Shown piece by piece: positions 41,877 to 49,774 of a DNA stretch of 64,000 nucleotides. A program made the translations under genes and the position numbers. The DNA is from an uncultured Verrucomicrobia subdivision 3 bacterium. GTDB taxonomy: Bacteria > Verrucomicrobiota > Verrucomicrobiia > Limisphaerales > UBA11358. Each line of letters begins with the position of its first letter. Position 1 is the stretch's first letter. The notes under the pieces are model-generated. The model worked only from the letters and a program-made list of their open reading frames with translations. It had not been told where the DNA came from and did not search any database. The stretch spans positions 1 through 64,000 of the forward strand of contig CAINLR010000115.1 of NCBI GenBank assembly GCA_903850425.1. Reading direction: 5' to 3'.

Positions 41877-43358
41877 TCAAAGGTCAAACCCGCAGTAGGA
41901 CAGGTTGAAACTCTTGTTGCAGATCGGAAAATCGGAGATCGCCTGGCCGCGCATCGCCAGTTCCAGACCGGTCCAGTTGTGGAACGACGCGTCCACGATT
42001 TTGTAGCGGCGGAAATTTCCAGCGGCATCTGTGAGCGCGATGTGACAAACTTCGCCGCGCCAGCCTTCGACCAGCGCCACGGCGAGTGTGTCGCCAGCGG
42101 ACGGACTGGTGTCGGCGAAAATTTCGCCTTCCGCCGGCACGGCCAGTTGTTCTTCGATGAATTTGGCGGAGCGTTGTATCTCCAGCCAGCGCACATGCGC
42201 GCGCGCGAGCACGTCCCCTTCCGGCCAGACGACGACGGGCACGGGCGCGAAACGATGCCAGCCCGCCGGATGATCGAACCGAACGTCGCGCACTAAACCA
42301 GAAGCGCGCGCCGCCACGCCGACCAAGCCGATTTCCGCAGCCTGCACGGCCGAGACGGTGCCGGTGAACTCAAAGCGGGCGCGGACAGAATTCGATTCCC
42401 ACAACCATTCAGCCGCTTGATTCACTTCGGCCAGCGCGACACGAAGTTTGGCGAGCAACTGCGCCGCGCGTGCCGTTTCCAAATCGTGTTTGCAACCGCC
42501 GGGACGGATGAGGCCACGCCCAAAACGGTTGCCGCAAAGCAACGCGGTAAGATTCAAAAAATCGCCGCGGATTTTTCCACACGCGGCGGAAGTGGGCAGG
42601 AACGCCACATCATTGGCCAGCGCGCCGAGGTCGCCGGTGTGGTTCGCCAGTCGTTCCAATTCAAGCGCGATGGCGCGCAGCCATTGCGCGCGCAGCGGGG
42701 CTTCCGTGCCGGCGAGCGATTCGAGAATCGTTGCGTAAGCCGTCGCGTGGCCGATGGTCGTGTCGCCGGCAATGGTTTCCATCTGGCTCATCGTTGCGCG
42801 ATGCGGCCCGCCGGCGAGCGCCTCCTCCACCCCGCGATGTTGATATCCGAGCGCGATTTCCAGATGCAACACGTCCTCGCCGTTGCATTGAAATCGAAAA
42901 TGGCCCGGCTCGATGATCCCCGCGTGAACTGGCCCAACCGCGACTTCGTGAATCTCACCGCCTTCGACTTTGAAAAATTTTCCGTTCGCCGGATGATCGC
43001 CATCCGGCCGACGCACTGGTTTCAGCCACGGATGACCTTCCGGCACGAGGCCGTGTTGTTCCCAGACTTCGCGCTCGAACAAATGCGCCTGCGGATATTG
43101 CAACGTGAGCGACGGATAATTTTTCGTCACCGGCGCGCTGCGACCGACGGCAAGCGTGTTTTCGGAATCGAACGCAATTATCGCGACGAGGCGCGTCGCG
43201 GAATTTTCCGGCACGCCGAACCACGCGCAGAGCCGTCCGCCGCGCTCCAGTTCCGCGGCGGTGGCGGCGACGAATTCATCCGCCGGCCACTCCGGCACGT
43301 CCGCCCACGGCACGCTGGTGCCGTTGCTGATCAGTAAGAATTCGCGCGGTGCGTTCAT
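41877..43358 (-). CDS. HyfG-like large subunit (NuoC/NuoD fusion) lacking NiFe ligands
   Basis: The 493-residue protein has an N-terminal NuoC-like domain (RLVAIIAFDSENTLAVG ... EREVWEQHGLVPEGHPWLKPV) and a NuoD/hydrogenase large-subunit-like domain (HLEIALGYQHRGVEEAL). NiFe hydrogenases have RxCGxC near the start and DPCxxC near the end of this domain. Here the first site reads IAGDTTIGHA without Cys, and the end reads DFPICNKSFNLSYCGFDL, not CxxC. It therefore should not hold a NiFe centre. Such subunits occur in energy-converting-hydrogenase-related (Ehr) complexes, whose substrates are poorly known. Confidence 0.88.
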   Translation of the reverse strand: MNAPREFLLISNGTSVPWADVPEWPADEFVAATAAELERGGRLCAWFGVPENSATRLVAIIAFDSENTLAVGRSAPVTKNYPSLTLQYPQAHLFEREVWEQHGLVPEGHPWLKPVRRPDGDHPANGKFFKVEGGEIHEVAVGPVHAGIIEPGHFRFQCNGEDVLHLEIALGYQHRGVEEALAGGPHRATMSQMETIAGDTTIGHATAYATILESLAGTEAPLRAQWLRAIALELERLANHTGDLGALANDVAFLPTSAACGKIRGDFLNLTALLCGNRFGRGLIRPGGCKHDLETARAAQLLAKLRVALAEVNQAAEWLWESNSVRARFEFTGTVSAVQAAEIGLVGVAARASGLVRDVRFDHPAGWHRFAPVPVVVWPEGDVLARAHVRWLEIQRSAKFIEEQLAVPAEGEIFADTSPSAGDTLAVALVEGWRGEVCHIALTDAAGNFRRYKIVDASFHNWTGLELAMRGQAISDFPICNKSFNLSYCGFDL

Positions 43359-43382
43359 GGTGTGACAAGTTCAAAATCCAGA

Positions 43383-43478
43383 AACATCGAACCTTCAACC
43401 TTCAACGCCCAACGCTCAATACCGCAACGCGTCGCGCCGCATTGGCTGTTCGGCGTTGACTGTTGAAGGTTCGATGTT
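43383..43478. repeat. Heptad-repeat inverted element between hyfG-like and hyfF-like genes
   Basis: The left arm has five 7-nt units (aacatcg, aaccttc, aaccttc, aacgccc, aacgctc) and the right arm five (ggctgtt to cgatgtt), around a 26-nt centre. Outer units are perfect complements. A gattcatgg block follows at 43486-43494. Read in operon direction it begins 10 nt after the hyfF-like stop. Confidence 0.85.
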
Positions 43479-43488
43479 TTGCTTTGAT

Positions 43489-44925
43489 TCATGGATTCAA
43501 TATGCTCGCCGCCGCAGTCCAGGTGTCGCGCAGCAATGCCGGCGTGGCGAGGCCGAGCCAGAGCGAGAGCGCGAGGAAGAGCAGCGGTGGGACGATGACG
43601 CCGGGCGTTTCGCGGAGCTGTTTGCCGGTTGCGCGGGCGGCGGCGCGCGGCCGTCCGTCCACGATGGCGAACACGAGCCGCGCCATTCCGAAAAAGGCAA
43701 AGAGCAAACATCCGAGAAATGCCGTGGCAGCAAAGGTGTTGTTCGTCTGGAAGGTGGCGAGAATGATTTTTAACTCGCTGAAAAATACGCCGAAGGGCGG
43801 GCACGCTGTCACCGCGAGAATTCCCACCACAAAAATTCGTGCCGACGCCGGCGAACGCCACGCCATGCCGGTGACTTTGTCCGCCGTCTGCGCGCCCGCC
43901 GCGCGGCGGATGTTGCCGGCGCTCAAGAACAGCGCGCCTTTCGTCAGGCCGTTGGTCCAGACATGAAACAGGGCGGCCCAGATGCCCGCGCCACCGAGCG
44001 CCGCGCCGACAGCGAGGATGCCCATGTGCTCGACGCTCGAATAGGCGAGCATCCGTTTGAAGTCCGGTGTGCCGAGCAAAAACAGCGCGGCCACCAACAT
44101 GGAAAATAGTCCAAACGCGAGCAGCGTGCGCTCCGTCATCGCGCCGCCGCCGGCGGCATCCACGACTTGTTTCACGCGCAGAATCGCGACGAAGGCCATT
44201 GTGGTCGTGCCGCCCGCGAGCAGCGCGCCGACCACTCCCGGCGCTTCGCCGTAGGCATCCGGCTTCCAGGTGTGCATCGGCGCGAGACCCATTTTCGTGC
44301 CGTAGCCGGCGAGCAGCAGCACCCACGCGGTGATGAGCCAGGGGCGCGTGAGCGACGCGCCCTGCGCGACGAGCGCGGTGAAAGTGAGGTCGCCATTTCC
44401 GCCGCCGTGCAGCGACGCGTAGCCGAGGCAGAACGAACCGAGCAGCGACAACGCGATGCCCGTGCCGCCGACGAGCAAATATTTCCACGACGCTTCGAAC
44501 GCGCGCGCCGTGCCGTTGAAATGCAGCAGCGGCACGGTCACCAGCGTGGTCGCCTCCGCCGCGACCCAGAGCAGGCCGAGGTTTTGCGCCTGCAAGGCGA
44601 GGCTTAACAAGCCCAGCATCACGAGCAGCGCGGTGACGAAGATTCGATTTTTTCGTTCGGCTCGGATTTGCAAATAAGCCACGCCATAAATCGCGCAGAC
44701 CAGAAACAGCAGCGACACCATCGGCAACACGGCGCGCGCTAGCGGATCGAAGCCGAACCACGCATCCGCCGCGAGCAAGGGCGGATCAATCAGCAGCCAC
44801 AACGTCAGCGCTGAATGAAAAACTCCGGCGACCGGCAGCAGCCACGGGCGCGTTCGTTCGTTCGGCCACGCGAACGCAGCGGCGGCGGCCAGCAACGGAA
44901 TGGCGATGAGGAAAATTTCTTTCAT
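43489..44925 (-). CDS. HyfF-like proton-translocating antiporter-type subunit
   Basis: The 478-residue protein has about 14 transmembrane helices and resembles NuoN/NuoM-type pump subunits. Signature regions are LLHFNGTARAFEASWKYLLVGGTG, LLAGYGTKMGLAPMHTWKPDAYGEAP (Lys and His in the broken helix), LAYSSVEHMGILAVG and FFSELKIIL. These residues form the ion channel of complex I-like machines. It starts with ATGA overlapping the hyfE-like stop and is followed by a heptad element before hyfG-like. Confidence 0.92.
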   Translation of the reverse strand: MKEIFLIAIPLLAAAAAFAWPNERTRPWLLPVAGVFHSALTLWLLIDPPLLAADAWFGFDPLARAVLPMVSLLFLVCAIYGVAYLQIRAERKNRIFVTALLVMLGLLSLALQAQNLGLLWVAAEATTLVTVPLLHFNGTARAFEASWKYLLVGGTGIALSLLGSFCLGYASLHGGGNGDLTFTALVAQGASLTRPWLITAWVLLLAGYGTKMGLAPMHTWKPDAYGEAPGVVGALLAGGTTTMAFVAILRVKQVVDAAGGGAMTERTLLAFGLFSMLVAALFLLGTPDFKRMLAYSSVEHMGILAVGAALGGAGIWAALFHVWTNGLTKGALFLSAGNIRRAAGAQTADKVTGMAWRSPASARIFVVGILAVTACPPFGVFFSELKIILATFQTNNTFAATAFLGCLLFAFFGMARLVFAIVDGRPRAAARATGKQLRETPGVIVPPLLFLALSLWLGLATPALLRDTWTAAASILNP

Positions 44926-45563
44926 TCGCGCAACGAGGTCAGTTTCCGTGTGTCCAGCGTGTCAAACTCCCGTTGAATCCGGTCCACGATGATGCCGATG
45001 ACGAAGATCGCCACGGTGAGATCGAGTAAAATTCCGGCCTCGACCAGCAGCGGCGTGGTGTTGATGAGCAGGAGGCCGAACAGGTAAATGCCATTTTCCA
45101 AAATCAAGTAGCCGCAGACCTGCGAGATGGCCTTGGTGCGCGCGATGAGCAGGATAAATCCACACACGACGGTGGCAAATGCGCCGGGCAGAAGGAGCGA
45201 TTTGGCGTGCTCGGGTCGCAACGGCAGTTCGCTGGCGAGGGCTGCCGCGCCGATGGTCGCCGCCGCACCGAGCAACAGCGACGGCACGAAGCCGAGCAGC
45301 GGTTCGACTTCGCGGTCAATGTTCGCCGCGCGCAAGGCCCGTCGGAGCAGGTTTGGAATGATGAAGCCTTTCACCGCAATGGTCCCGATGGCGACGGCGA
45401 CGACGAGCCAGTGAAAATTTTCTTCAAGCAGCAACGGAAGGGTCCCGAGAATCATGCCTTGAAACGCCGCCGCGCGGATCACCGACGGCAGCCGGCTGCT
45501 GGCCAAGGCCACGAGGCTCAAGCCCATCGCGAGGCCGATGAGGAGGTTCATCGTGCCACTCAT
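44922..45563 (-). CDS. HyfE-like membrane subunit
   Basis: The 213-residue protein has about six transmembrane helices and the HyfE pattern: SVIRAAAFQGMILGTLPLL, VAIGTIAVKGFIIPNLLRRAL, ISQVCGYLILENGIYLFGL (a NuoK-like segment with Glu), and the C-terminal DLTVAIFVIGIIVDRIQREF. In Hyf complexes HyfE connects the HyfC and antiporter-like subunits. It overlaps hyfF-like by 4 nt, so the two are probably translated together. Confidence 0.9.
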   Translation of the reverse strand: MSGTMNLLIGLAMGLSLVALASSRLPSVIRAAAFQGMILGTLPLLLEENFHWLVVAVAIGTIAVKGFIIPNLLRRALRAANIDREVEPLLGFVPSLLLGAAATIGAAALASELPLRPEHAKSLLLPGAFATVVCGFILLIARTKAISQVCGYLILENGIYLFGLLLINTTPLLVEAGILLDLTVAIFVIGIIVDRIQREFDTLDTRKLTSLRE

Positions 45564-45622
45564 GGGACAACTCCCTTCTGGAAATTGGGGCGCTGTTCTC
45601 GGGTCGAAGGCGCTGCAAAATT

Positions 45623-45724
45623 AACACCCAACACCCAACACCCAACATCCAACATCCAATTGTCTGAGCGCAAACGAACGCTGTCCATTGGATGTTGAGC
45701 GTTGGATGTTGGGTGTTGGTTGTT
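45623..45724. repeat. Heptad-repeat inverted element between hyfE-like and hyfC-like genes
   Basis: The left arm is five 7-nt units (aacaccc three times, aacatcc twice), the right arm five (ggatgtt, gagcgtt, ggatgtt, gggtgtt, ggttgtt), around a 32-nt centre; total 102 bp. In operon direction it starts 11 nt after the hyfC-like stop. A ggttcatgg block (45733-45741) overlaps that stop codon. Confidence 0.88.
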
Positions 45725-45735
45725 TTCCATTCGGT

Positions 45736-46644
45736 TCATGGCATCCCGCCTTTCCACGCGACCAGCAGCGCGAACAGGCAAAACAAAAATGCCGTGGTCA
45801 GCAACAGCGGCACGCGGCGAAATGCCAGCCGCGCCAGCAGTGATTCAACCAGGCCGACCGCGACCGCCACGACGAACACCGAGGCGACGAGCGCACCAAT
45901 GGCTTGGAACAAGGATAATTTGCCGAGCGGCAAAACGGCTTCGGTCAGCAGCACGGCGAAGAGCAACAGTTTTAACGACGCGCCGTGAAGAATGGCCGCG
46001 AGCGGCGGGCCGCTGTGATCGAGCACCATCACTTCGTGGATCATCGTGAGTTCGAGATGCGTGTTTGGGTCATCGAACGGCACACGGCAGTTTTCCGCCA
46101 GCAGCACGCCGAACAAACCCGCCGCCAGCAATGCCGCGCCCGCGCCGGCTGACGGCGCGAGCATCGTGGCCAGCGACACGCTGCCGCTTTGCACACAGAG
46201 CGTGAGCAGCGCCGTGATGATCGCGGCCTCGGCGAGAATGGCGTAGCTCACTTCACGCGCCACGCCCATGCCTTCGAAAGCCGAGCCGGTGTCGAGCGAT
46301 GCGAGCGCGATGCAGAACCGCGCGAACGCCAGCAGATAAACGAACAGCAGCGCGTCACCGCGGAATGAAAACGATGCGCCCGCCGGGCCGACTGGCAGCA
46401 ACAATGCCGCAGCAATGATCGCAACCCAAGCCATCGCCGGGCCGAGGATGTGCATGGGCGAAACGGCCGTGCTCAACACGACGCCCTTGCGCCAGAGTTT
46501 GGCGAGATCGAAATAGAGTTGCAGCACCGGCGGCCCGCGCCGGCCGGCGACCCACGCCTTGACCTTGTTGATGATGCCGGGCAGCAACGGCGCGAGCAAC
46601 AGCCACACCGCGAGCCGCAGAAAGATATCGAGCGCGACGGTCAT
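45736..46644 (-). CDS. HyfC/HycD-like membrane subunit (NuoH family)
   Basis: The 302-residue polytopic protein belongs to the NuoH/HyfC family. It shows AWVAGRRGPPVLQLYFDLAKLWRK near the N-terminus, the E/D-rich region AENCRVPFDDPNTHLELTMIHEVMVLDHSGP, and about eight helices. This subunit couples the soluble arm to ion translocation. The ATG at 46644 is preferred because the upstream 9 codons fall in repeat-flanking sequence. It lies between hyfB-like and hyfE-like, each separated by a heptad element. Confidence 0.92.
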   Translation of the reverse strand: MTVALDIFLRLAVWLLLAPLLPGIINKVKAWVAGRRGPPVLQLYFDLAKLWRKGVVLSTAVSPMHILGPAMAWVAIIAAALLLPVGPAGASFSFRGDALLFVYLLAFARFCIALASLDTGSAFEGMGVAREVSYAILAEAAIITALLTLCVQSGSVSLATMLAPSAGAGAALLAAGLFGVLLAENCRVPFDDPNTHLELTMIHEVMVLDHSGPPLAAILHGASLKLLLFAVLLTEAVLPLGKLSLFQAIGALVASVFVVAVAVGLVESLLARLAFRRVPLLLTTAFLFCLFALLVAWKGGMP

Positions 46645-46666
46645 GGGCGTCCTCCGCCGGGAAAGA

Positions 46667-46768
46667 AACATTCAACATTCAAGATCGAACATTCAACATC
46701 CAATTTTCGGCAGCCGTCCGAACGCATCGCTTTGGATGTTGGACGTTGGATGTTGGATGTTCGGTGTT
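46667..46768. repeat. Heptad-repeat inverted element between hyfC-like and hyfB-like genes
   Basis: The left arm has five 7-nt units (aacattc, aacattc, aagatcg, aacattc, aacatcc), the right arm five (ggatgtt, ggacgtt, ggatgtt, ggatgtt, cggtgtt), with a 32-nt centre; total 102 bp. In operon direction it starts 9 nt after the hyfB-like stop at 46778. Confidence 0.88.
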
Positions 46769-46777
46769 CCCAATTTT

Positions 46778-48733
46778 TCATTTCGCGCCTCCCATCACAG
46801 CGAGAATCGCCAACGCGGCTAGGCCGAGCAGCAGGTAAAAAATGTAGGATTGCACCCGGCCGTGTTGCAGCCGGCGCACGGATGTCGAGAGGCGCAGCAC
46901 GAGCGAGCCGGCAGGTTCGACGACCTTTTCCAAGACTGTTTCCGGCGTGTGTTCGGCAAACTCGGCGTGCGTCGGAAAATATCCCTTGGGCAGACGTGCG
47001 TGTCGTTGCGGCCGCAAAATCCAATCGAACCAGCCGGTGATGATGCCGGCGAACGAGCCGGCGGTGTATTGCATCCGCGGCGTCGGCGCGGCGTAACCGC
47101 AGTCCCACGTTCCCGCACGGCTCACGCCGTTGCGCTGCACGCGCCGCCATAGAAATATCCCTGCTAAAATAACAAGCGCGGTCAGCGCGAGATGGAAGGC
47201 ACCGAGCGTGACCAGCGGCGCCGATGGCAACGCATTTGCGTTTGTCAGCGCCGGTTGCCACGCCGCCGAAGCCGTGGCGAGCGCCGGCCAAAATAATATC
47301 GGCGCAAGGCCGATGGTCACGCACGCCGCGCCGAGCACGAGCATTGGCAGGCGCATCCGCCAGCCGCATTCGTGGACGTGCTCCGCGATTTCAGTGCGCG
47401 GCAGGCCGAGGAAAACCACGCCGCACACTTTTACGAAACACGCCAGCGCCAGCGCGCCGGTCATGCCGAGCGCCACAGCGGCGAGAATCGCAGCGAAGGC
47501 AGCGTGGCCGTGCTCGGACACGGCGTCGAACAGGCCGAGATACACGAGCCATTCGCTGACGAAACCGTTTAGCGGCGGCAGCCCGGCGATGGCGGTTGCG
47601 CCGAGCGCGAACAAGGAGGCGGTCCACGGCATCGCGCGCCAGAGTCCGCCCAACCGGCTCATTTCCCGCGTGCCGGTGGCGTGCAACACCGAACCCGCAC
47701 CGAGGAACAAAAGCGCTTTGAACAAACCATGATTCCACACATGCAGCAACGCGCCGGCGAGCGCGAGTTGTCCCCACATCGGATTTCCGTGCGACGCGGC
47801 GAGCATTGCGAAGCCAAGTCCGATGAGGATGATGCCAATGTTTTCCACGCTGTGATACGCGAGCAGGCGTTTGAGATCGTGCTGGCCGAGCGCGAACGCG
47901 ACACCGAGCACCGCGCTGACTACGCCGAGCGCGGCCACGACCCAGCCCGCTGAATCAGGCGTGGGCAACCAACCGGTGAAGCGCACAATTCCGTAAATGC
48001 CCATCTTGATGGCCATGCCTGACATGATCGCGGAGACGTGGCTGGGCGCGTTGGCGTGCGCGGACGGCAGCCAGATGTGCAGTGGAAAAATGCCCGCCTT
48101 GATGCCGAAGCCGACCAACGCGAGCCAGAACAACGGCGCGAGCTCCGTTCGTTCGCGCATCGGGCCGAGTTCCCAGCTTCCCGTGCGCGCCGCGAGTTGC
48201 GCGAAAAAGGCGAACAGCAAAATCATCGCCACATGCGACGCCGCGAGGTAAAGCCAGCCAGCGGCGCGCGTTGCGGGGCGCTGACGTTCGCGCGTGATGA
48301 GAAAATACGCGCAGACAGTGAAGATTTCCCAGACGATGAGGAAGTGCAGGCCGTTCGCGCAGAGCAGCACGAAACCCATGTTGAGCAACATTCCGTTCCA
48401 CCACGCACGGCCCGGCGGCGCGGAGGCTGGGTGCGCTTTGTCCGACCAATATTCGCTGGAATACAAAGTGCCCGCGCCGCATAAGACTGAAAGCAGAACC
48501 AAAAAGAATGCGCTGATGCCGTCGAGTTGAAAGTGCAAGGCTTCACCACCGATGACAAAGCCCGGTTGCCAGTCCCAAACTGTGCCACTGGCGAGCATCC
48601 ACACCGCTGCCGCGAAGGCCGCGATTGTCCCGGCGAGCGTCGCCGCGAGCCAGACGCGCGGCGACTTGAAGGCGCTGAGAATTCCGGCGACGAGTCCGAG
48701 GCCGGCAATCAACAGCAGCCAGCCCGGAGTCAT
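46778..48733 (-). CDS. HyfB-like proton-translocating antiporter-type subunit (NuoL/M family)
   Basis: The 651-residue protein has roughly 15 transmembrane helices. Pump-channel blocks are WEIFTVCAYFLIT, FGIKAGIFPLHIWLPSAHANAPSHVSAIMSG (Lys and His of the discontinuous helix), LKRLLAYHSVENIGIILIG, WNHGLFKALLFLGAGSVLHATG and LNGFVSEWLVYLG. It is the first membrane subunit of the hyf-type operon, preceded by the HTH-EIIA gene. A HyfD-like third antiporter subunit is absent from this operon. Confidence 0.93.
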   Translation of the reverse strand: MTPGWLLLIAGLGLVAGILSAFKSPRVWLAATLAGTIAAFAAAVWMLASGTVWDWQPGFVIGGEALHFQLDGISAFFLVLLSVLCGAGTLYSSEYWSDKAHPASAPPGRAWWNGMLLNMGFVLLCANGLHFLIVWEIFTVCAYFLITRERQRPATRAAGWLYLAASHVAMILLFAFFAQLAARTGSWELGPMRERTELAPLFWLALVGFGIKAGIFPLHIWLPSAHANAPSHVSAIMSGMAIKMGIYGIVRFTGWLPTPDSAGWVVAALGVVSAVLGVAFALGQHDLKRLLAYHSVENIGIILIGLGFAMLAASHGNPMWGQLALAGALLHVWNHGLFKALLFLGAGSVLHATGTREMSRLGGLWRAMPWTASLFALGATAIAGLPPLNGFVSEWLVYLGLFDAVSEHGHAAFAAILAAVALGMTGALALACFVKVCGVVFLGLPRTEIAEHVHECGWRMRLPMLVLGAACVTIGLAPILFWPALATASAAWQPALTNANALPSAPLVTLGAFHLALTALVILAGIFLWRRVQRNGVSRAGTWDCGYAAPTPRMQYTAGSFAGIITGWFDWILRPQRHARLPKGYFPTHAEFAEHTPETVLEKVVEPAGSLVLRLSTSVRRLQHGRVQSYIFYLLLGLAALAILAVMGGAK

Positions 48734-48761
48734 GCGGCGGCCTTTCTAGCCAAGGAAGGAA

Positions 48762-48863
48762 AACATTCAACATTCAACCGCCAACGTTCCACGCTCAACG
48801 GACTGCGTTTGCGCAAACGCCAAAAAATGGATGTTCGGCGTTGAATGTTCGGCGTTGAATGTT
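48762..48863. repeat. Heptad-repeat inverted element between hyfB-like and the HTH-EIIA gene
   Basis: The left arm has five 7-nt units (aacattc twice, aaccgcc, aacgttc, cacgctc), the right arm five (ggatgtt, then cggcgtt and gaatgtt alternating), around a 32-nt centre; total 102 bp. The centre contains a perfect 16-bp palindrome gcgtttgcgcaaacgc (48805-48820). A ggttcatgg block follows (48870-48878) and overlaps the stop of the EIIA gene. Confidence 0.88.
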
Positions 48864-48872
48864 TCCAACGGT

Positions 48873-49568
48873 TCATGGCGGTGGTTTGGTTTGCATTTCG
48901 GCGGCGGCAATGCTGGCGAACAGTTCATCGTCCGGCGCACCATCGTTTATCAGCTTGCCCAGATTGCCGCGCGACAAGGCGGTGCTTAATTGGGCGAGCA
49001 TTTCCAAGTGCGCGCGGGGCGAAGGCGCGACGAAGAACAGCAGCCGGGTGATGGGCTGTTCGTCCGGCGCGGGTTCGTTGATGGCGAGCGCGTCGCGGAG
49101 CAACAGAATGGCGAAAATGCCGGCGTCGCGGCCGAGCGCGATGGGCGTGCGCAGATGCGGCAGCGCCAGGCCGTCGCCCACCAGTGCCCAGGAAATGCCG
49201 TTGGGTGAGCGGAGCCGTTGTTGCAACATCTGGCGCACGGGCGGGGTCGCGCCAGGAAGTTTGGCGACGATGTCAGCGAACAAATTGAGAACATTCGCGG
49301 CGGGAACGTCGCGCCAGATGCCGCCGGTGCGGAGCAGCGTTGCGAGTTTTTTCCCGCCTGGGAGCTTGGAATGTTCCGGCGCGAGAAATCCGACCTTGGC
49401 GGCCAGTCCGTGGGACTCGGCCCAAGCCACCACTTGCGTGCGGTCGAAGAGCCGCCGCCCCCGGTCAGTCACATGGGGCAGCCCGTCGTTGCGAATCCAG
49501 CCCTCCACCTCGCGCTCTTCCACGCCGAGGGATTGGGCCAGTTCAATGATGTTCAAGAACATCGGCAT
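48873..49568 (-). CDS. HTH domain fused to a PTS EIIA-2 (fructose/nitrogen-type) domain
   Basis: The 231-residue protein begins with an excisionase-like helix-turn-helix (LNIIELAQSLGVEEREVEGWIRNDGLPHV, then RGRRLFDRTQVVAW; about 1-60). It continues with a PTS EIIA-2/PtsN-like domain that contains the phospho-acceptor histidine motif GDGLALPHLRTPIALG. The EIIA domain may respond to phosphotransferase status and the HTH may bind DNA or a partner, but no PTS transporter is nearby. It lies 139 nt upstream of hyfB-like on the same strand, so it may control or sense for that complex. Start ATG 49568 or 49562. Confidence 0.8.
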   Translation of the reverse strand: MPMFLNIIELAQSLGVEEREVEGWIRNDGLPHVTDRGRRLFDRTQVVAWAESHGLAAKVGFLAPEHSKLPGGKKLATLLRTGGIWRDVPAANVLNLFADIVAKLPGATPPVRQMLQQRLRSPNGISWALVGDGLALPHLRTPIALGRDAGIFAILLLRDALAINEPAPDEQPITRLLFFVAPSPRAHLEMLAQLSTALSRGNLGKLINDGAPDDELFASIAAAEMQTKPPP

Positions 49569-49774
49569 TGTCAGTGAAAGCACTCAAATGCAGGCAGCGC
49601 AAACTCCGGCAACCTGCAACTTCCGGTTTCACTGCTGGCCAGCAAAACAAAATCGCGCCGGTTGCGCAATGTAGTTTCTCGCAGATAGTTTCTCGCAGGC
49701 AGCGGCGGCGGGACGGCGGAATTGCGCTTTTCCGGCGGCCCCTTTGCGCGTATCCTCCGCGCGTGGCAACGGCG

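Follow-up and report, generated by a model that had tools for sequence, protein, structure and literature searches.

Short palindromic and tandemly repeated sequences have been described from bacterial genomes in several forms. Repetitive extragenic palindromic (REP) sequences and REPINs are dispersed palindromes found past stop codons, with a GTAG or CGTC tag at the palindrome foot as one of their marks. The short tandemly repeated repetitive (STRR) sequences of cyanobacteria consist of degenerate heptads and are named, together with the Nostoc trnL hairpin, as comparable, and a short, gene-less form of the rRNA intervening sequence (IVS) is present in Salmonella. Here, we analyze four inverted heptad elements in a 64,000-nucleotide stretch of DNA (hereafter, the window) from an uncultured Verrucomicrobia subdivision 3 bacterium (assembly GCA_903850425.1, contig CAINLR010000115.1, positions 1 to 64,000 of the forward strand), each located at one junction of a single hyf-type operon.

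In Coxiella, the IVS of 23S rRNA has tandem heptamers ahead of the S23p start and a 28-bp terminal stem that is cleaved by RNase III in vitro; the relevant sections of the same source present this IVS as a selfish element, call the function and origin of rRNA IVSs unclear, describe S23p as a protein without known function, and report that the S23p of Xanthomonas campestris is a ring-shaped homopentamer (PMC4990558). In Xanthomonas, GGGAATC heptads form arrays of mostly four units, often as inverted pairs, between aligned open reading frames (ORFs) and mostly near stop codons, at most 50 bp away (sections of PMC4692102), and degenerate heptanucleotides in the P6b region of the Nostoc trnL intron pair into a hairpin (sections of PMC3488679). 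These two cases show that the remark in an initial sequence-only reading of the window, that known heptad repeats are not inverted pairs, does not hold in general.

The window elements share features with each of these systems. Like the 23S rRNA IVS with an S23p ORF (Coxiella, Leptospira), they have inverted terminal arms, and heptad arms also occur inside the 23S rRNA at one Azospirillum locus (L327). As with the IVS, there are two forms: the longer one includes a gene (428 nt in Coxiella, 537 nt at locus L091 of the window's own genome), and the shorter one, about 100 nt in length, has none. Unlike the IVS, their host site is the stop/start overlap of an mRNA operon rather than an rRNA helix, and there are many copies per genome. 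Heptad arrays, inverted pairs, and proximity to stop codons are shared with the Xanthomonas repeats, but the sections describing the latter offer a G-quadruplex reading and no link to S23p or ATGA, and the words found here are mostly not G-rich. The Nostoc P6b heptads are likewise degenerate and hairpin-forming, but, in the sections concerned, they lie inside an intron and show no S23p link. Dispersed palindromes after stop codons recall REP/REPIN sequences, from which the elements differ by the lack of Y1 transposase association, the heptad architecture, and the ATGA on both sides.

The four sequences are probably gene-less members of a class of heptad-armed S23p elements that invades ATGA-coupled operons and would form an intercistronic, RNase III-type hairpin. 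Each consists of two mutually inverted arms of about five 7-nt units of the AACNNYS type, separated by a short centre. Two arms have one broken unit each (AAG for AAC in 46667-46768, CAC for AAC in 48762-48863). Direct inspection and a phase scan (requiring three or more of five units in phase) both recovered the four elements with inverted AAC/GTT arms that the sequence-only reading had located. The scan found no paired AAC/GTT runs elsewhere in the 64-kb window, the other signal being three isolated hits (20 simulated windows under the same scan: mean 2.25 hits, maximum 5). The operon lies on the minus strand and, read in its direction, each element starts 9-11 nt past a TGA stop, with 22-59 nt between its end and the next ATG, which agrees with the spacing reported earlier. 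A GTTCATGG-like block that had been noticed beside three of the four elements is present, but it contains the upstream stop codon (ATGAA...AAC in the operon direction); the downstream side of all four elements likewise opens with ATGA, a point that we add here. The elements, their stop-side ends, and the stop/start overlaps are given below (hyf gene names are labels from the sequence-only reading).

48864..48876, minus strand: stop-side end of element 1, ATGAACCGTTGGA, including the upstream TGA stop
48762..48863, minus strand: element 1, arms and centre, between the PTS_EIIA_2/HTH_17 gene and the hyfB-like gene; insert between ATGA copies 48734-48872 (139 nt)
48730..48733, minus strand: second ATGA copy, the start of the hyfB-like gene
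46769..46781, minus strand: stop-side end of element 2, ATGAAAAATTGGG, including the upstream TGA stop; like the S23p start region of L091
46667..46768, minus strand: element 2, between the hyfB-like and hyfC-like genes; insert 46645-46777 (133 nt)
46641..46644, minus strand: second ATGA copy, the start of the hyfC-like gene
45725..45739, minus strand: stop-side end of element 3, ATGAACCGAATGGAA, including the upstream TGA stop
45623..45724, minus strand: element 3, between the hyfC-like and hyfE-like genes; insert 45564-45735 (172 nt)
45560..45563, minus strand: second ATGA copy, the start of the hyfE-like gene
44922..44925, minus strand: ATGA stop/start overlap without insert, hyfE-like/hyfF-like
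43479..43492, minus strand: stop-side end of element 4, ATGAATCAAAGCAA, including the upstream TGA stop
43383..43478, minus strand: element 4, between the hyfF-like and hyfG-like genes; insert 43359-43488 (130 nt)
43355..43358, minus strand: second ATGA copy, the start of the hyfG-like gene
41877..41880, minus strand: TTGA overlap without insert, hyfG-like/small subunit

To the sequence-only reading, the elements appeared to form mRNA hairpins, and all four indeed have strong predicted RNA folds (-64.5, -66.9, -36.3, and -44.2 kcal/mol; z -8.9, -8.0, -2.5, and -3.8). Complementary ends that form a stem are present in each, although imperfect. The arms are not base-perfect, as had been described: in eight copies 80.5% of cells are paired, compared to 80.3% in arm shuffles. 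A reversed-pattern control is not independent for these elements, because they match the reversed pattern themselves. An Rfam search of the window gave no match, and the elements are located at protein-gene junctions, not inside an rRNA gene.

Comparison of orthologous junctions revealed the state of these sites without the elements. Across 56 hyf-type loci (with one contig entered twice, L126 = L188), stop and start codons overlapped by 4 nt at 155 of 184 usable junctions, usually as ATGA and in some cases as GTGA or TTGA. Of the usable orthologs of the element 1 junction, 9 of 12 were such overlaps lacking an insert, and a 4-nt overlap was present in 10 of 15 usable orthologs for element 2 (L193 was left out since its hyfC-like frame is broken and the start was extrapolated), 44 of 56 counted for element 3, and 43 of 49 counted for element 4. 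AAC elements also occur at the element 2 junction in the relatives G001 and G015 and at the element 3 junction in G001. The two window junctions reported to lack an element do so, but both retain the 4-nt overlap, which is the commonest state in relatives (hyfE-like/hyfF-like: 49 of 52 counted). In the window, four junctions read ATGA-element-ATGA, and the near relatives G001, G015, L102, and L103 are bare at some or all of them; the hyfC-like protein of G001 is 97% identical to that of the window. Because empty orthologous sites are bare overlaps, the four elements were inserted at these places, with an ATGA retained to either side; this demonstrates insertion at 4-nt overlaps. The presence/absence pattern that the sequence-only reading had asked about is thus one of bare overlaps in most relatives and inserts in some.

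Other repeats occupy some of these junctions. Two of the same junctions in L118 (3665-3893 and 5844-6000) contain a different inverted repeat of the GACAGGCG..CGCCTGTC type, between ATGA or GTGA and ATGA, and the 253-nt gap between the hyfF-like and hyfG-like genes of L184 is filled after ATGA by palindromes of yet another set (CACCCGGCTT..AAGCCGGGTG type and AAACCGTT..AACGGTTT type). Other repeat families at the same sites indicate, therefore, that these junctions tolerate inserts leaving ATGA on each side. In L125, a distant verrucomicrobium, heptad arrays with very different words (GTAGCGA, CCGCTAC) are located at the hyfC-like/hyfE-like and hyfF-like/hyfG-like junctions.

The elements belong to a dispersed family. 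A covariance model built from eight copies gave 94 matches in the own 6.9-Mb genome, corresponding to about 47 places read on both strands, which is a lower bound given that 150 of 893 first-look candidates were scored. The further copies sought by the sequence-only reading are thus present, and neither of the outcomes that it named as refuting was obtained. Given the genome copy number, four copies within 5.5 kb have a Poisson probability of 8e-8. Of 59 genomes (the own genome and relatives), 37 match the covariance model, with numbers ranging from none to many inside one genus. The strict pattern of four AACNNYS units was found in 45 of the 59 and in 120 of 288 phylum-sampled genomes (85 of 152 genera), and the words vary between genomes at the places listed. 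Extreme expansions exist in two phylum-sampled genomes, G272 and G279 (>650 pattern matches each, including overlapping ones).

Using gene calls from a home-made codon-score caller, we found that 40 of 45 parsed own copies lie between co-directional genes (tandem junctions), three are convergent, none is divergent, one overlaps a called gene, and one is at a contig edge. The absence of divergent positions among 43 copies has a chance of 0.0006-0.0025 against the junction make-up of G001. The proposed insertion just past stop codons holds across the genome, with the first AAC located -1 to 21 nt from the called stop in 38 of 40 tandem copies (L067 and L076, the other two, have far or clearly negative distances). 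Upstream stops at the tandem copies are TGA in 32 and TAA in eight, and the surrounding called genes end in TGA (110), TAA (52), or TAG (17). Eighteen of the 40 tandem junctions could be located in 1.58 Mb of G001: five are empty, six contain an AAC element, three a heptad element with another word, one another palindrome, and three a larger gap. All five empty junctions are ATGA overlaps (two were read by eye, with called starts that differ). A copy in L059 (3393-3475) has arms facing outward (GTT arm, 21 nt, AAC arm), the reverse of the usual order, and perhaps comprises two adjoining damaged elements. In the arms of the own genome, NNTG-ending words are rare compared to NNCG (ATTG: 16, ATTC: 96; ATCG: 32, ATCC: 63), and TGA is less frequent in the AAC-type arm as a result.

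The shared property of this family is the 7-nt period rather than one word. In 1.58 Mb of G001 there are 146 lag-7 runs, compared to 0-17 at other lags from 5 to 15; they represent 51 canonical words, mostly in 4 to 6 units, and have an inverted partner within 120 nt in 55 cases and a direct partner in none. The 39 paired G001 elements occupy 24 tandem, five convergent, and two divergent junctions, with seven inside called genes and one at an edge. In another count with the same gene caller, 30 of 65 runs lay within called genes; some of the genes concerned in both counts appear to be spurious calls. Between five ortholog pairs (a sixth was left out), changes affected 7 of 147 AAC positions, 34 of 147 word positions, 14 of 50 seventh bases, and 44 of 151 centre positions. 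The two arms of one element have words in common more often than do arms of different elements (44 of 218, compared to 11% expected), also at neighbouring offsets (-2 to +1), which suggests copying between arms, not selection for one register. Lag-7 enrichment was not found in pooled hyf-type loci of other verrucomicrobia (8 runs in 466 kb; lag 6: 8, lag 9: 16) or of other phyla (5 in 446 kb).

Longer members of the class carry a gene. At L091, AAC arms about 500 nt apart enclose a frame of 169 aa, making an element of 537 nt, and the frame matches PF05635 (23S_rRNA_IVP; 37.4 bits, cut-off 33.8), the family of S23p, the four-helix protein of 23S rRNA IVSs. The own genome has nine PF05635 matches, of which eight are above the cut-off and one is AAC-armed. 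The stop-side ends of the four window elements are similar to the S23p start block of L091, which reads ATGAAAAAACGGA followed by AAC. The ATGAA block of the window elements may therefore be a remnant S23p start now serving as, or overlapping, the upstream stop. When G001 was scanned for partners 121-900 nt away, 16 of 146 runs had one (control: 17 of 438), defining 10 distinct centres; five of these, with other words, contain an S23p frame matching PF05635, and the other five contain none. Six of six chosen centre proteins were assigned to PF05635 by Pfam, an identity check and not a rate, as the proteins were picked for looking alike.

The association was also found at S23p loci that had not been chosen by their arms. 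The verrucomicrobial sample contains 38 loci (30 best-match loci and 8 more own matches), 37 of them scorable and one without a right flank. At a threshold of 18/28 or better, inverted heptad arms were present at 31 of the 37 verrucomicrobial S23p loci and at 22 of 27 on plasmids. The same test on outer flanks was positive in 1 of 32 and 0 of 27, respectively, and random places gave 24 and 39 of 1000. Lag-7 runs occur in 31 of 74 verrucomicrobial and 40 of 54 plasmid flanks, with at most 5 at other lags from 5 to 11 (at most 2 in the 74 verrucomicrobial flanks). Arms surround S23p genes in Verrucomicrobiota and Cyanobacteriota, and at one or two plasmid loci each in Pseudomonadota, Chloroflexota, Spirochaetota, and Bacillota; the arm-positive plasmid loci come from cyanobacteria, Chloroflexota, one spirochaete, one Bacillota, one Bacteroidota (weaker), and Azospirillum, and a Gemmatirosa S23p locus has no arms. 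In Azospirillum (L327), the S23p gene with its heptad arms is located inside 23S rRNA (Rfam LSU match across the whole stretch); no rRNA match was found in the examined stretches of the 38 verrucomicrobial loci. One solved S23p structure was found by sequence (2gsc, XCC0516).

Several plasmid S23p copies are flanked by cas or restriction operon genes that run in the same direction, including L326, which has no arms at the threshold. The S23p genes in defence operons are those of L316, L319, L326, L330, L332, and L337, and the neighbours at these six loci are cas6/cas4 (twice), cas10/cmr3, drmD/mmeI, helicase/methylase, and hsdS/hsdR.

Closer S23p proteins have closer arm words. For the 43 loci that have a homologue above 60 bits, the word distance to the locus with the nearest protein averaged 1.42, compared to 3.03 when permuted (0 of 2000 permutations as low; 40-locus version: 1.48 and 3.04). 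Pairs of S23p proteins with at least 70% identity have a mean word distance of 0.91 (14 of 22 at most 1), and those with 50-60% identity have a mean of 2.94 (2 of 33 at most 1). The distance is 0 between the verrucomicrobial L278 and Nostoc L324, and between Gloeocapsa L329 and the Chloroflexota locus L331. This coupling would fit either word recognition by S23p or joint movement of the gene with its arms. Across the 59 genomes, PF05635 and AAC-pattern counts are correlated (rho 0.57, p 2e-6).

The operon that received the four window elements consists of the genes listed below, followed by a last named gene with Oxidored_q6 and ferredoxin domains; its gene set appears compatible with a group-4 hydrogenase or related complex (domains by Pfam).

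48873..49583, minus strand: gene upstream of element 1, HTH_17 and PTS_EIIA_2
46778..48733, minus strand: hyfB-like membrane subunit, Proton_antipo_M
45736..46644, minus strand: hyfC-like membrane subunit, NADHdh
44922..45563, minus strand: hyfE-like subunit, Oxidored_q2 slightly under the Pfam cut-off
43489..44925, minus strand: hyfF-like membrane subunit, Proton_antipo_M
41877..43358, minus strand: hyfG-like large subunit, Complex1_30kDa and Complex1_49kDa

In the proposed class, two inverted arms, each with about five 7-nt words in tandem, flank a short unique centre or, in longer members, an S23p gene. Within operons, the element enters the 4-nt stop/start overlap and leaves ATGA on each side, so that the upstream stop and the downstream start both survive. 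Once transcribed, the arms could form an RNase III-type hairpin at which the operon mRNA would be cut between cistrons, as are IVS stems in rRNA, and translational coupling would be replaced by separate initiation of each cistron. The S23p protein may recognize the skeleton triplets in an array of about five heptads and aid the persistence or spread of the element, and it may act in trans on gene-less copies.

Several observations weigh against this interpretation. The protein-word coupling could come from whole-element copying instead of binding. R1-model matches are present in three of nine genomes without a PF05635 match (G029, G043, and G044 (57% complete)), and S23p genes occur in G006 and G012, where R1-model matches are absent. 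No inverted arms pass the threshold at 6 of 37 verrucomicrobial S23p loci and at 5 of 27 on plasmids; direct partners do so at 12 of 37 and 9 of 27, respectively (random places: 37 and 87 of 1000); therefore, S23p flanks are not purely inverted. The S23p loci are also a non-random sample, with the plasmid set comprising 27 of 44 rows. Because the most alike pair among the 45 own copies is only 0.82 identical, with nearly unrelated centres (0.68, compared to 0.64 when shuffled), the copies give no instance in which the gene-less form transposed recently, and copy-paste from a single master was rejected on the same ground. True arms folded better than swapped arms in 21 of 43 cases (Wilcoxon p 0.083), and this weak pairing advantage weakens the reading of a selected hairpin. 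Lastly, right flanks matched empty sites of the same junction better on average than those of other junctions in seven of seven comparisons, with small margins and confounded by the Shine-Dalgarno sequence, so that a target duplication longer than ATGA is suggested rather than proven.

Three other explanations were considered for the elements. Replication slippage alone, in which a 7-nt word beside a chance palindrome expands via the polymerase footprint and is tolerated in intergenic positions only, would account for a period of 7 shared by many words and for the sharing of words between arms at offsets -2 to +1, and a polymerase idea has been reported for heptanucleotide repeats (sections of PMC4679880). 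It is nevertheless unlikely, because filled and empty sites differ by the entire insert of 130-172 nt with ATGA on both sides, the G001 runs have inverted partners within 120 nt in 55 of 146 cases and direct partners in none, and the S23p association and protein-word coupling are left unexplained. The slippage of a single repeat put forward in the sequence-only reading therefore fails as a full account, given that 51 words have the period in common and that such arms also flank S23p genes. Strong folds, an AAC skeleton conserved between orthologs, and an operon-internal position would be expected of non-mobile regulatory hairpins (attenuators or stability elements) under selection for operon-specific expression, but these are made distinctly improbable by the patchy occurrence at the same junctions in near relatives, the many unrelated operons that carry elements, and the lack of in-register covariation between arms. 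A simple covarying RNA structure was rejected (the eight-copy alignment was no better than shuffles, and chimera folding gave p 0.083), as were intrinsic terminators, with at least six T in the 8 nt after the stem at 3 of 40 tandem copies.

The positions after stop codons, tandem or convergent but not divergent, are also those of REPs, and REP/REPIN-like palindromes could be spread by the Y1 (RAYT) transposase, tolerated past stops, and shield mRNA ends. Y1 matches are indeed present in 50 of the 59 genomes, including three in the own genome, which also has one RVT_1 match. However, G003 has 20 R1-model matches (both strands counted) and no Y1, G006 and G012 have Y1 but no R1-model match, the correlation of Y1 with AAC-pattern counts is weaker (rho 0.28, p 0.03), and the many unrelated words have the period alone in common. 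We consider such spread very unlikely, and Y1 was rejected as the driver. A retroelement or reverse transcriptase driver was rejected as well: the element-rich G001 and G005 (40 and 34 R1-model matches; 96-97% complete) have no RVT_1, and reverse transcriptase and AAC-pattern counts are not correlated across the 59 genomes (rho 0.11, p 0.43). With respect to a miniature inverted-repeat element (MITE) of a DDE transposon, no transposase-bearing copy was seen among the few long centres that were read, and ATGA was seen on both sides.

Returning to heptad-armed S23p elements, a broader proposal can be made tentatively, with somewhat more doubt than confidence: S23p proteins might be sequence-specific readers of heptad arrays, with the protomers of the ring each on the triplet of one unit and with an own word per lineage. 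Arms and gene would then constitute one widespread class of tiny mobile elements that includes rRNA IVSs, cyanobacterial and possibly xanthomonad heptads, and the gene-less operon copies. The TRAP protein, which reads spaced triplets, provides a likeness for such array reading. In the open-licence literature, we found no report joining S23p to inverted heptad arms outside rRNA or to ATGA junctions.

The heptad arms, together with the coupling of words and proteins, give S23p a testable ligand. The operon insertions provide a natural experiment, in which the same subunit genes are coupled (ATGA) or uncoupled (ATGA-hairpin-ATGA) in near relatives. Moreover, these elements may offer one explanation of the scattered heptad reports in Xanthomonas, Nostoc, and Coxiella.

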